This document shows positions 393 through 57,100 of a DNA stretch of 64,000 nt, piece by piece. The notes under the pieces are model-generated. The model had not been told where the DNA came from and did not search any database. It worked only from the letters and a program-made list of their open reading frames with translations. A program made the translations under genes and the position numbers. The DNA lies in NCBI GenBank assembly GCA_024697405.1, contig JAILFU010000171.1, forward strand, positions 1 through 64,000, read 5' to 3'. This DNA is from Prevotella sp. GTDB taxonomy: Bacteria; Bacteroidota; Bacteroidia; Bacteroidales; Bacteroidaceae. Within the stretch, counting starts at the first letter, position 1. Every line of letters starts with the position of its first letter.

Positions 393-703
393 AAACCCTG
401 CAACCCTGCATTCTTCCTTTATAAGTATTTGCTTTTCAGGATATTGCCAGGTGCACACTTTGCTGCAAACCCTGCACTCAACCCTGCATTCTCCGGCCGA
501 GGGGAAAGCCTGCCGAGGAGGAGAGTAAGCTAACGCAGGTGAAAGGTTAGCCGCTTATTTGTCCCAAGCCTTGGGACAAAAAAATAGCGTTAGTATTTTT
601 CCAAACGGCGTTCGTATTTTCCCAAACGGCGTTAGTATTTCCTGAAGACAATTTATTTAGAATATATCTTGATTAGTGCAGAGTATGCAGAGTTGCAGGG
701 TTT
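393..703. repeat. Dispersed intergenic element, copy A
   Basis: AAACCCTGCAACCCTGCA at left, TGCAGAGTTGCAGGGTTT at right, GTCCCAAGCCTTGGGAC at 561-577, followed by tandem TATTTTCCCAAACGGCGTT units. Confidence 0.75.
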
Positions 704-747
704 TTCGAGATTCACTATATTATAATATATAACCCAGCTTCCACATA

Positions 748-949
748 GGCAATAATATAGCAGTTGACCCAGGACATCTTCTCCAGCGGTAGCCGCAATA
801 TTGCGTCCCTTTGCCAGCAAACGACCGGAGGTCGAGCGCCCGACCTGCCACCTACCAGTAGCCATTCCCCTCTCATCAAGGTGAGGGGAGTGCCATGCGG
901 GTCAGTCAATCATGGTCAGCTAATATAGGTCAACTGCCCTATTGTGGCC
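748..949. repeat. MITE-like element with degenerate terminal inverted repeats (GGCAATAATATAGCAGTTGACC ... GGTCAACTGCCCTATTGTGGCC)
   Basis: Terminal 22 nt are inverted copies of each other (about 18/22); the same left end recurs at 17189 and 41077. Confidence 0.55.
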
Positions 950-8379: not shown

Positions 8380-8586
8380 TTAGTTCTTGCAACCGGCTTT
8401 TGTGGAGTCCTCGCAGCAGGCGTCCTTCTGCTCCTTGCAGCAGTCGTCCTTCTGTTCCTTGCAGCAGTCTTCCTTCTGCTCCTCGCAGCAGGCGTCTTTA
8501 TGTTCCTTGCAGCAGGCGTCCTTCTGCTCCTTGCAGCAGTCGTCCTTATGTTCCTTGCAGCAGGCATCTTTCTGCTCCTTGCAGCA
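8380..8586 (-). repeat. 24-nt tandem repeat coding for the CCKE(Q/H)KD(A/D) octapeptide tail of NqrC
   Basis: Eight CC pairs at 8-residue spacing; repeating gcagcagtcgtccttctgctcctt-type 24-mers. Confidence 0.95.
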
Positions 8587-9213
8587 AGGATGGGATGAGC
8601 CGACGAAGCGCTGGGCTACATTCTGCAGTCCTGCTTTAATCATGTCGTTCACACCATTACTGGTCAACGTAGCACCTGTCACGCAGTCCACCTGAGTCGT
8701 GGGGTCATCCACTTTCTTCACGACAGAGAGCGCCACATCGCCATTGGCAAAAACCTTCTTGCCAATGAACTTCTCCTGCCACTCCTGCGAGTCCTTGATT
8801 TCTGCGCCAAGACCTGCCGTTTCGCTCTCGTGGTTGAAATAGGCGCCATAGACTGTGGGGTCGTCTTCGCCATGAATAGCGATATAGCCGCTGATGCCGC
8901 CCCAGAGTCCCATGCCCTTCAGGGCAAAAACCATGATTTCTTCACCATCGACAAGGCAGGCGTAGGCTTTCTGCCCGTCGACCTCAGTCTCCGACTTTAC
9001 CACCTCGGCATACTTGGCTTCGGCTTCAGCATCGTCAAGACCGCGCAGGTTCAGCGAGTTGAGGATTTGTTTCTTCACGTCGAGGGCCACGTTGGCTTCC
9101 TGCTTCGCCTTCAACGAGGAAGAGACGAATGCCAGCAGGAAGGCCACGATGACGACGAGAATCGCACTATATATAATAATGTACGCGTTGGAGTTTGTAT
9201 TCAGCTTACTCAT
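8380..9213 (-). CDS. nqrC: Na+-translocating NADH:quinone reductase subunit C with Cys-rich octapeptide-repeat C-terminal tail
   Basis: NqrC body with FMN attachment region VTGATLTSNGV, followed by (CCKEQKDA)n tail. Confidence 0.95.
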   Translation of the reverse strand: MSKLNTNSNAYIIIYSAILVVIVAFLLAFVSSSLKAKQEANVALDVKKQILNSLNLRGLDDAEAEAKYAEVVKSETEVDGQKAYACLVDGEEIMVFALKGMGLWGGISGYIAIHGEDDPTVYGAYFNHESETAGLGAEIKDSQEWQEKFIGKKVFANGDVALSVVKKVDDPTTQVDCVTGATLTSNGVNDMIKAGLQNVAQRFVGSSHPCCKEQKDACCKEHKDDCCKEQKDACCKEHKDACCEEQKEDCCKEQKDDCCKEQKDACCEDSTKAGCKN

Positions 9214-10403
9214 TTTGTACCTCCTCTCTTCATTCGTTTACTAATATTCCGCTCCACGACGAAGTGGTCGATGGTGGGAGCAAACATGTTCATCAGCAGG
9301 ATGGCGAGCATCATGCCCTCAGGATAGCCGGGGTTCATCACACGGATGATGATGGCCATCATGCCGATGATGAAGCCGTAGATCCACTTGCCAGTCTCTG
9401 TGCGTGCAGAGGTGACGGGGTCGGTAGCCATAAACACGGCACCAAAGGCGAAGCCGCCCAGCACCAGGTGCTCATACCAGGGAATGGGCGTAGAGCCTGT
9501 CGACGCGAAGAGGGCTGCCGTCAGAGCGCCGCCCACGAAGACGCTGAGCATGGTCTTCCACGAGGCGATGCCCGTGATGAGCAGCAGCAGGGCACCAAGG
9601 GCGATGGCGATGACGCTGGTCTCGCCGATAGAGCCCGGTATGAAGCCGCAGATCATGTCGCAGAGGCTGGTGCCGGCATCAACGGGGTTGACGCCCAGTC
9701 CCACCTCGGCCAGCGGAGTAGCCTGCGAGAAGCCGTCGACCAGCGTGTTGCCCAGGCCGAAGATGGTGTCGTCGGCCACCCACACCTTGTCGCCGCTCAT
9801 CATTGAGGGGTAGGCAAAGAAGAGAAAGGCACGGCAGATGAGCGCGGGGTTGAAAATGTTCATGCCCGTGCCGCCGAAGATTTCCTTGCCGATGATGACG
9901 GCGAAGGCGACGGCTATGGCCAGAATCCAAAGCGGACAGTTGACGGGGATGATCATCGGGATGAGGATGCCCGACACGAGGAATCCCTCCTGTATCTCCT
10001 CGCCCTTCCATTGTGCCCAGGCGAACTCAATGCCCAGACCCACGATATAGCTGACGAGAATCTTGGGCAGCACGGCCAGGAAGCCGTAGATGAAGATTTC
10101 GAAGAAGCCGGCCGAGGCGAGGGTGCCTGCAGCCATATAGTTCTGGTAGCCCACATTATACATACCAAAGAGCAGGGCAGGCATCAGGGCAATCACTACC
10201 ATACTCATGATGCGCTTCGAGTCGATGGCATCATGTATGTGCACTCCGTTCCTCGACGTGATGTTCGGCACGTAGAGGAAGGTCTCGAAGCCGTCGAAGA
10301 GCGAGCGGAAAGCATGCAGCTTGCCGTCTTTCTCGAAGTTCGGCTTTATCTTGTTCAAATAATTTCTTAAAAAACTCATAGAACTCAAATTTTGACTAAT
10401 CAA
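9210..10403 (-). CDS. nqrB: Na+-translocating NADH:quinone reductase subunit B
   Basis: NqrB-type membrane protein; FMN site region SVIAIALGALLLLITGIASWKTMLS. Confidence 0.97.
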   Translation of the reverse strand: MISQNLSSMSFLRNYLNKIKPNFEKDGKLHAFRSLFDGFETFLYVPNITSRNGVHIHDAIDSKRIMSMVVIALMPALLFGMYNVGYQNYMAAGTLASAGFFEIFIYGFLAVLPKILVSYIVGLGIEFAWAQWKGEEIQEGFLVSGILIPMIIPVNCPLWILAIAVAFAVIIGKEIFGGTGMNIFNPALICRAFLFFAYPSMMSGDKVWVADDTIFGLGNTLVDGFSQATPLAEVGLGVNPVDAGTSLCDMICGFIPGSIGETSVIAIALGALLLLITGIASWKTMLSVFVGGALTAALFASTGSTPIPWYEHLVLGGFAFGAVFMATDPVTSARTETGKWIYGFIIGMMAIIIRVMNPGYPEGMMLAILLMNMFAPTIDHFVVERNISKRMKRGGTK

Positions 10404-10408
10404 TCCTT

Positions 10409-10731
10409 CTCAACACTAATTGCGGGATAAACTTATTCACTAATTGGGGAAAATCTTATTCACTAATTGGGGAAAATCTTATTCGCTAATTGAGGAAAAT
10501 CTTATTCACTAATTGGGGAAAATCTTGTTCACTAATCGTGGAAAATCTTGTTCACTAATTGGGGAAAAATTTTTCCATAATTTGTGGTTTATATTTTCCA
10601 TAATTCGTGATTTAAATTTTCCATAATTTGTGGTTTCTATTTTCCTAAATTTGTGATTCATATTTTCCTAAATTTGTGATTCATATTTTCCATAATTCGT
10701 GACTTACATTCTCCGTAATTCGTGTAAAAAA
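10409..10731. repeat. Head-to-head array of 23-nt tandem repeats: 7 units CTTATTCACTAATTGGGGAAAAT then 7 units of the inverted form TTTTCCATAATTCGTGATTTATA
   Basis: Units keep an exact 23-nt register from 10409-10569 and 10571-10731; second half resembles the reverse complement of the first. Confidence 0.9.
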
Positions 10732-10752
10732 AGAATCGTGCTTACCATATAT

Positions 10753-16756: not shown

Positions 16757-17111
16757 AAACCCTGCAACCCTGCACCAGTAGCGTTTAACCTCCTGTTTCT
16801 TAGCCGTTTGTCAGGTGTACACTTTGCTGCAAACCCTGCTCTAACCCTGCTCCACGCTCATGCTTTCGCCAATAGCCTGATGTATAGTCCAAAAGTTCCC
16901 GCAGAAAGTCCCAAGCCTTGGGACGAAAAAATAGCGTGCGCATTTTCCCAAACGGCGTGCGTATTTTCCCAAGCGGCGTTCGTATTTCCCAGTACGCATC
17001 ACGAATATAGACATTTCGCATAGTAAGTGCAAGGTTTCGCCTCAAGTGTACACTTTCTACCTCGCTGTAAAACAAAGAATTACAAAGCACCAGCGCAGGG
17101 TTGCAGGGTTT
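16757..17111. repeat. Dispersed intergenic element, copy B
   Basis: AAACCCTGCAACCCTGCAC left, GCGCAGGGTTGCAGGGTTT right, GTCCCAAGCCTTGGGAC at 16908-16924, tandem CGCATTTTCCCAAACGGCGTG units. Confidence 0.75.
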
Positions 17112-17322
17112 GCACAAAATATGGTCAATATAATCATCCTTCTAGTAGGGAAAGGGCATAATAATAGAACTTGAGAACCATTATTTTAGGCAACGACATA
17201 GCAGTTGACCATGAATGCTTCACCGATTAAATTAGGTCAAAACAGACCGAAACAAACCTTAAATCGAATCGCGTAAAACGCTGTCATACAATTAACTCCG
17301 CTTAACAGACCTTATTCTTTGC

Positions 17323-40731: not shown

Positions 40732-41067
40732 AAACTCTGCAACCCTGCACCTGGAACAGACAACCATCTGTATTCCAAAACATTGGAGGTAGTACACTTT
40801 GACGAAAACCCTGCATAAACGCTGCATGCCCCAGCATCGTTACCCCTGACAACTCCGAAGAAAAGTCCCAAGCCTTGGGACAAAAAAATACTGCCCGTAT
40901 TTTCCCAAACGGCGTTAGTATTTTTCTGAACGGCGTTCCTGTTTTCCTGCATGGAGCGCGTATATAGACAAATGCATAGTTGATGCAGGGTTTTGTTCCA
41001 AGTCTGCACCTAATACTTTTCTAAAAATCAGCGAGTTACAGAGTCAGAGTGCAGAGTTGCAGGGTTT
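40732..41067. repeat. Dispersed intergenic element, copy C
   Basis: AAACTCTGCAACCCTGCAC left, TGCAGAGTTGCAGGGTTT right, GTCCCAAGCCTTGGGAC at 40865-40881, CGTATTTTCCCAAACGGCGTT core. Confidence 0.75.
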
Positions 41068-41076
41068 AATAAAATA

Positions 41077-41304
41077 GGCAATAATATAGCAGTTGACCCA
41101 GGAATTCTTTTCCGGCGGTAGCAGCTCCCCTCCCCTCAAGGGGAGGGGCAGGGGTGGGGTCGGTAATATCCTTTCAACGAATCTACCATCGGCTGTTTTT
41201 CTCCGTGGAAAAAGTTACAGGCCCCAGCCCTGCCCCTCCCCTTGAGGGGAGGGGAGTGGCTACCGCCGGAGAAAAATTCCTGTGCCAACTGCTATATTGT
41301 TGCC
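41077..41304. repeat. MITE-like palindromic element with 85-bp inverted arms
   Basis: 41077-41161 vs reverse complement of 41220-41304: 9 mismatches in 85 by eye; 58-bp spacer. Confidence 0.85.
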
Positions 41305-52383: not shown

Positions 52384-52524
52384 CGGGCTGCGCCCTAAAT
52401 GATAAATGATAAATGACAAATAAAAAATGCTGCGCGATGAAAAGACTAAATATTAGTAGAAAGATTTTTACGCCGCTAAGTTTATCATTTATCATTTTTC
52501 ATTTATCATTTAGGGCGCAGCCCG
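52384..52524. repeat. Inverted repeat CGGGCTGCGCCCTAAATGATAAATGA... whose right arm encodes part of the CapA-like signal peptide
   Basis: 26-nt perfect arms 52384-52409 and 52499-52524; the right arm lies in the CDS. Confidence 0.9.
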
Positions 52525-54935: not shown

Positions 54936-55229
54936 TATCCTTCACAAGACCGTAACTTGTTGATAAACAATTACTTCTTGTGAAGGATATGGCTTTTGTA
55001 TAAATATACAGAGAAACTGTATATTTATGCAGAGTCTATGCTTTTCAAGCACCTCTTATCCCTATTTTCCAAATAGTGCCACCTTTTGAAAAAATGCGAA
55101 CGCTATTTTCCCAAAAGGCGTTCGCATTTTTTCCTACGGAGGCACTATACGAAATGCATAAATATGCATTTTAGAGTATCCTTCACGGTAACTGCCATAT
55201 ATTCACTGTATTACACGACGGTGAAGGAT
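54936..55229. repeat. Divergent copy D of the dispersed intergenic element (ATCCTTCAC/GTGAAGGAT boxes, long central hairpin)
   Basis: Core CGCTATTTTCCCAAAAGGCGTTCGCA matches A-C core; 16-bp perfect stem GAAAAAATGCGAACGC/GCGTTCGCATTTTTTC. Confidence 0.55.
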
Positions 55230-56937: not shown

Positions 56938-56945
56938 CGGGCTGC

Positions 56946-57100
56946 GGGCTGCGCCCTAAATGATAAATGACAAATGATAAATATATAAATAATGCTGTGT
57001 GATGAGAGGAGTATATAGAAAATTCTTTGGAGGTATTGTCAGACAGCTAGGTTTTTTATTTTTTATTTTTTATTTATCATTTAGCCCTGTAAGGGCGCAA
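56946..57100. repeat. Second GGGCTGCGCCCTAAATGATAAATGA inverted-repeat element overlapping a signal peptide
   Basis: Left GGGCTGCGCCCTAAATGATAAATGACAAATGATAAAT; right TTTATTTATCATTTAGCCCTGTAAGGGCGCAA. Confidence 0.8.

Follow-up and report, generated by a model that had tools for sequence, protein, structure and literature searches.

The 311-bp element at positions 393-703 of the window, the whole stretch of 64,000 nucleotides of Prevotella sp. DNA analysed here, is probably a non-autonomous, MITE-like member of a PrimPol-helicase mobile-element family of rumen Prevotella, and would act by the mechanism proposed below. This element (copy A) and copies B and C of the same window share with word-arm elements the inverted arms of about 95-105 bp, an iterated word, a common scaffold and tandem units of 21-22 bp located inside the left arm. 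Ends that are related to theirs without being identical lie on either side of a PrimPol-VapE gene, and the carrier of this gene would be a putative autonomous partner. Copies A-C display an array of 21-bp units at the place where these relatives hold the gene, and contain no ORF combining PF08800 and PF05272; they are therefore designated non-autonomous members. A non-autonomous mobile element was one of the options proposed in the original prediction, and it is the one supported by the related inverted arms flanking the gene in other genomes.

Layout of copies A, B and C

Upon checking of the sequence, all the components predicted for copy A were found in place, and the same order of components is displayed by copies B (16757-17111) and C (40732-41067). 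The three copies have in common inverted arms of about 95 bp, in which the word CCCTGCA is iterated, together with a palindrome of 17 nt and tandem units with a strict period of 21 bp. The features are as follows, where R3 designates the arm model of the A/B/C type.

393-410: copy A, outer left end AAACCCTGCAACCCTGCA (from the sequence)
393-489, plus strand: copy A, left arm (R3, 77.8 bits; sequence)
396-402 and 404-410: copy A, outer words CCCTGCA of the left arm
451-456: copy A, inner palindrome GTGCAC, within GTGCACACTTTG (451-462)
470-476 and 482-488: copy A, inner words CCCTGCA of the left arm, beside GTGCACACTTTG
561-577, no strand: copy A, 17-nt palindrome GTCCCAAGCCTTGGGAC, then AAAAAAATA
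578-584: copy A, A-tract directly after GTCCCAAGCCTTGGGAC
587-649, plus strand: copy A, tandem 21-bp units, intact at 587-607 and 608-628, with a degenerate third at 629-649
658-703, minus strand: copy A, truncated right arm (R3 matches model positions 1-46 only)
677-683, 686-692 and 694-700: copy A, right-arm words TGCAGAG, TGCAGAG and TGCAGGG
686-703: copy A, outer right end TGCAGAGTTGCAGGGTTT, the inverse of AAACCCTGCAACCCTGCA with one mismatch
704-735, plus strand: right-end extension TTCGAGATTCACTATATTATAATATATAAC (from flank comparison of the copies)
16757-16851, plus strand: copy B, left arm (R3, 72 bits)
16908-16996, plus strand: copy B, palindrome (16908-16924) and 21-bp units (16934-16996)
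17018-17111, minus strand: copy B, right arm (R3, 65.7 bits)
40732-40827, plus strand: copy C, left arm (R3, 70.4 bits)
40865-40952, plus strand: copy C, palindrome (40865-40881) and 21-bp units (from 40891)
40971-41067, minus strand: copy C, right arm (R3, 70.3 bits)
55064-55150, no strand: solitary inverted pair of array units, with neither arms nor palindrome

In the left arm of copy A, a scaffold separates the outer words from the inner palindrome. The right arm is matched by the model along its outermost 46 nt only, copies B and C having two full arms, and the TTCGAGATTCACTATATTATAATATATAAC extension is common, in diverged form, to the copies with a short right arm. A divergent copy D had also been claimed to follow the same order. 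The sole further match in the window is the solitary pair at 55064-55150, likely the region that was meant, and only the units are common to it; models built from the copies of the genome detect no armed element in the window beyond A, B and C.

Other repeats are present in the window. Arrays of a 23-bp unit (TTTTCCATAATTTGTGATTTATA and its diverged inverse) are arranged head to head between genes at 10401-10747 and represent another minisatellite family, likewise with a TTTTCC anchor. The repeat CTGCGGGCTGCGCCCTAAATGATAAATGATAAATG occurs in direct and inverted copies at 52384-52524 and 56942-56988, and a 24-bp tandem repeat (8380-8601) is included in a minus-strand ORF (8380-9213).

Dispersal and related arms in the host genome

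The host genome was searched as an assembly of 3.55 Mb in 228 contigs, 85% complete. The outer 18-mer is matched 42 times with at most 2 mismatches, versus 0 times for the reversed pattern, and most of these matches pair as inverted ends 265-440 bp apart. The core is composed of the palindrome, the A-tract and 2-9 or more units, each exactly 21 bp in length; its model finds 91 matches in the genome, and the palindrome is missing from many copies. The copies are therefore not chance resemblances, and their number is not three: about 21 CCCTGCA elements are present, in addition to at least 40 elements built on the word GTAGCTAC. The predicted lack of coding potential is borne out by the 20 examined copies, 0 of which overlap an ORF of at least 150 aa.

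The flanks of the CCCTGCA and GTAGCTAC elements are mostly unrelated, and it is from this dispersal into unrelated sites that we infer mobility of the copies. No consistent direct repeat indicative of target-site duplication lies outside the ends of the CCCTGCA copies or of the gene-bearing loci, and an empty-site comparison at copy B, around which the synteny is not conserved, showed no empty site. The exact core has no match in the GTDB genomes, and the exact CCCTGCA outer 18-mer is found in 1 of 150 same-genus genomes, none other than the host. Two-armed copies by the dozen, dispersed over unrelated sites between the genes of one genome, together with such a restricted 18-mer, point to recent amplification and not to conserved sites. 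In viral contigs, 9 isolated 18-mer matches were obtained among 2.9 million contigs and were judged to be due to chance.

The same core occurs in other frames of the host genome, i.e. between arms of the word GTAGCTAC/GCGCTAC at the 40 or more loci counted above and with the GGCAACGATATAGCAGTTGACC repeat. In the hybrid elements L054, L008, L017 and L020, a single array is enclosed by two arms of different type. Both kinds of arm, CCCTGCA and GTAGCTAC, are about 95-105 bp in length and follow a single plan consisting of two outer words, the scaffold TAA....CTG.....CA....GTTG, an inner palindrome and two inner words. When the words are left out, the scaffold profiles of both arm types match at one register only (z 5.5; 0/5000 column permutations), so that the word differs and the scaffold is common to both. 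In one other species (G059), a diverged core of palindrome plus units is found without arms of these types, and core and arms are thus separable.

Several additional observations concern these repeats. At ten G059 loci (L073, L076, L078, L080, L082, L083, L086, L088, L090 and L096), the diverged palindrome is accompanied by GGCGTTGACTTTTTTCAAAA units, often inverted into hairpins, and in several copies a terminator-like T-run follows the palindrome. The GGCAACGATATAGCAGTTGACC repeat with its CTCCCCTCCCCTCAAGGGGAG spacer is dispersed and intergenic (window positions 745-948, 17180-17225 and 41074-41304); it often adjoins a CCCTGCA element or makes hybrids with it, and forms a 90-bp inverted pair at 41077-41304. 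Many GTAGCTAC elements of the host genome (L105-L129, L012, L014 and L016) are bordered, on one side or on both, by alternating (CG)n palindromes such as TACGCGCGCGCGTA located just beyond the end. The only RAYT (Y1) gene detected in the host genome (L101 1408-1992, contig C47) is accompanied by several copies of the GTAGGGAC type, reading ...GACACAAGGTCTGTCCG, presumably the cognate REP.

Gene-bearing PrimPol-VapE relatives

The model of the GTAGCTAC arm (R2) yields matches in 15 of 399 genomes. In one of these, the inverted arms are 2.5 kb apart and surround a single ORF of 697 aa, whose product combines PF08800 (BT4734/VirE-N, PrimPol-like) with PF05272 (VapE helicase). Homologues of this PrimPol-VapE gene are present at E<=1e-60 in 119 of 300 same-genus genomes. 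Inverted arms surround the gene at 10 of 20 loci in a first sample and, at E<1e-4, at 37 of 58 loci in a second sample overlapping the first, although L252, one of these 37, is a repeat of another type. The control consisted of 2.1-kb stretches drawn at random from the window and gave 0/150. The 58 loci come from named records, all of them Prevotella/Prevotellaceae or less precisely named Bacteroidales and mostly of ruminant origin.

Each of the gene-bearing arms is about 105 bp long and holds a word in about five copies, identical on the left and right of one locus and different between loci (GGGCTAC, GTGCTAC, CCTGCTAT, ATGCTAT, CCCCCTAT, GTGCCCCT, CTGCCCC, TTATCCG, CCTGCAC and others). About three tandem units are found just inside the left arm at 26 of 34 loci, with a length of 22 bp in 25 of the 26, versus 0/170 in controls. 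The resulting order is left arm, about three 22-bp tandem units, leader, one gene and inverted right arm. At the locus L311 of genome G101, an apparent further word-arm with the repeated word AGTGTAGG lies upstream of an SHMT gene.

The arms of copy A are connected to these elements by both models. Over the 58 loci (445 kb), R3 gives 8 matches at E<=0.1. Of these, 7 fall on arms and are oriented as expected, and in L295, L241 and L267 the gene has such a match on either side; these R3 matches are weak (best 1.8e-5) and few (7). All of the 23 matches of R2 over the same loci are on arms and in the right orientation (23/23). In the host genome, a full-length gene is located on contig C15 next to one for an HU-HIG protein, and its arms, of the word TGCTAT, are decayed. 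Two truncated homologues without the N-domain are located directly downstream of a CCCTGCA element on C193 and of a GTAGCTAC element on C105. A gene-bearing element of the word CCCTGCA was not found in the host genome, whose assembly is 85% complete.

No transposase ORF lies between the arms at the loci examined, and a domain search of the PrimPol-VapE protein detected no known strand-transfer, HUH or integrase domain. PrimPol motif I is expected to include a second acidic residue, which is absent from 14 of 14 aligned proteins, so that the PrimPol-like N-domain may be devoted to DNA reading rather than to primer making. The AlphaFold model of the protein was of low quality (pLDDT 43), and no result is based on it.

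The similarity of the words was compared to that of the proteins using partial Mantel correlations over 31 loci. Word similarity tracks the N-terminal PrimPol-like domain (r 0.29-0.36) and the C-terminal tail (r 0.36-0.38), as opposed to the helicase (r about -0.03). In 12 loci, it also tracks the HU-HIG protein encoded beside the element (r 0.36, p 0.006). All windows were picked after a scan, and part of the protein-word correlation is possibly due to shared ancestry. At many PrimPol-VapE loci (L205 1271-1930; L163 1257-2045; L209; L259), a gene of the HU-HIG type (PF18291) stops a few bases short of the left arm, on its outer side, and at G213:C200 both arms are abutted by HU-HIG 3' ends. 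Since the HU-HIG stop codon often precedes the left arm by a few bases only, the true boundaries of the gene-bearing unit may lie elsewhere than at the arms.

Proposed mechanism, alternatives and known systems

The proposed mechanism can be summarized as follows. The words would serve as iterons, bound by the protein that the element itself encodes and probably read by the N-domain and/or the C-terminal tail of this protein, possibly in partnership with the HU-HIG protein for which a neighbouring gene often codes. The PrimPol-VapE protein would assemble on both arms, the helicase would open the DNA, and the interval between the arms would then be moved or copied by the protein, which would also serve the gene-less copies in trans. 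The 21-bp array may be an expanded left-end unit cluster through which copies would recombine and exchange arms, and changes of word would isolate each family from the proteins of the others. A protein-binding array had been another option of the original prediction, and the iterated words, judged by their sequence, would fit such a role.

A more conventional possibility is that a DDE or other transposase encoded outside the assembly moves the arms as MITE ends of the ordinary kind, the PrimPol-VapE gene being a passenger framed by ends of the same type. The size and copy number are indeed MITE-like, the PrimPol-VapE protein is devoid of a strand-transfer domain, and MITEs of the BrickBuilt type borrow IS5 ends (PMC4596501). 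We nevertheless consider this explanation unlikely, as one gene family is found again and again between matching arms whose words are of many kinds, unlike a chance passenger, and as no transposase ORF is present between the arms at the loci examined. The arms and gene could alternatively form a chromosomal regulatory, replication or defence module, i.e. operator or origin arrays for the HU-HIG and PrimPol-VapE proteins, in which case the gene-less copies would be dispersed binding sites and not mobile DNA. The likeness of the iterated words and palindromes to protein sites, the HU-HIG gene abutting an arm at many loci and the position of the array upstream of the leader of the gene are in agreement with this explanation, and expanded HU proteins of Bacteroidetes were reportedly proposed by Burroughs et al. 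in 2017 to act against mobile elements. Dozens of two-armed copies in unrelated sites, with the exact 18-mer confined to 1 of 150 same-genus genomes, are not readily accounted for in this manner and make a non-mobile module quite improbable.

Two further explanations are given very little weight. A family of structured RNA (or RNA terminator) genes, which the original prediction had also envisaged, could account for folding better than that of shuffled sequences (z -4.6, -4.9), but good folding is expected of any long inverted repeat. The left and right arms of an element show no covariation of the kind expected of a stem (1048 differences versus 1081 +/- 18 when re-paired at random), covariation is not supported within arms either, the top column pairs correspond to adjacent-base dialects and not to helices, a scan of the window gave no Rfam match, and related arms flank a protein gene; an RNA family is accordingly very improbable. 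A repeat of the REP/BIME type, whose REP hairpin would be the 17-nt palindrome and which a RAYT (Y1) transposase would mobilise, would be consistent with the fixed place of the palindrome, the mosaic make-up and the single Y1 transposase gene of the host genome. This gene is flanked by its own different repeat (GTAGGGAC-GACACAAGGTCTGTCCG) and not by GTCCCAAGCCTTGGGAC, and many copies are devoid of the palindrome, which reduces the likelihood of this explanation to a nearly negligible level.

The preferred reading, a MITE-like derivative of PrimPol-VapE elements, can be compared to known systems. To our knowledge, no PrimPol-helicase element with inverted word-arms and a 22-bp array, nor gene-less derivatives of such an element, has been described, and we know of no transposon family that matches the pairing of gene-less ends with primase-helicase elements. 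The BIME/REP and Neisseria mosaic intergenic repeats also consist of module combinations and produce hybrids between families, but the elements described here have no RAYT link and display a symmetric two-armed architecture. Plasmid iteron origins similarly hold iterated words of 7-8 bp and an array of about 22 bp readable by an initiator/helicase protein, whereas the present elements are chromosomal, inverted on both sides of the gene and dispersed in many copies.

The claim that no named family has this architecture was roughly right, but the same general plan is found, with different ends and units, in BrickBuilt, a MITE of Porphyromonas gingivalis (Klein et al. 2015, PMC4596501) and the nearest named element in plan. 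Both are intergenic and devoid of ORF, with inverted ends, about 20 copies per genome, copies with and without intact ends, and an internal minisatellite of about 21-23 bp with a variable number of units and no spacers, the period being strictly 21 and not 23 in our case. BrickBuilt has 12-bp IS5-like ends (GAGACCTTTGCA), whereas the present arms of about 95 bp are made of iterated CCCTGCA with ends AAACCCTGCAACCCTGCA, and the gene-bearing relative is a PrimPol-VapE cassette instead of an IS5 transposase. Membership in BrickBuilt was rejected as its TIR GAGACCTTTGCA is not matched by the AAACCCTGCAACCCTGCA ends, the comparison being restricted to the printed TIRs. More generally, the elements resemble MITEs in being short, multi-copy, non-coding and intergenic with long terminal inverted repeats, and differ from them in that no target-site duplication is seen and that the sole gene around which related ends were found codes for a primase-helicase. 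VirE-N/VapE PrimPol-helicase proteins are known to occur in mobile and transposable elements (PMC8211822; for the wider AEP families, see PMC5862659). The gene between the related arms has the same VirE-N (PF08800) and VapE helicase make-up, but its AEP motif I looks degenerate. Beyond PMC8211822, nothing relevant on VapE with HU-HIG, or on primases with inverted-repeat elements, in Prevotella/Bacteroidetes was found in the mostly open-access literature.

It is conceivable, although we rate it at somewhat less than an even chance, that these elements constitute a new class in which a primase-like/SF3-helicase protein without known transposase moves the DNA between long inverted word-arms, each family having its own word, co-evolving with the DNA-reading domains, and dozens of gene-less copies. 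If this is true, related families in one genome could each maintain dozens of gene-less copies. The VirE-N/VapE genes, common in rumen Prevotella, gain through the word-arms and the gene-less copies a testable role in mobile elements, and the word-arm link explains a large share of the intergenic repeats of the host genome. The protein-word pairs would finally provide a natural series for studying the diversification of DNA recognition.
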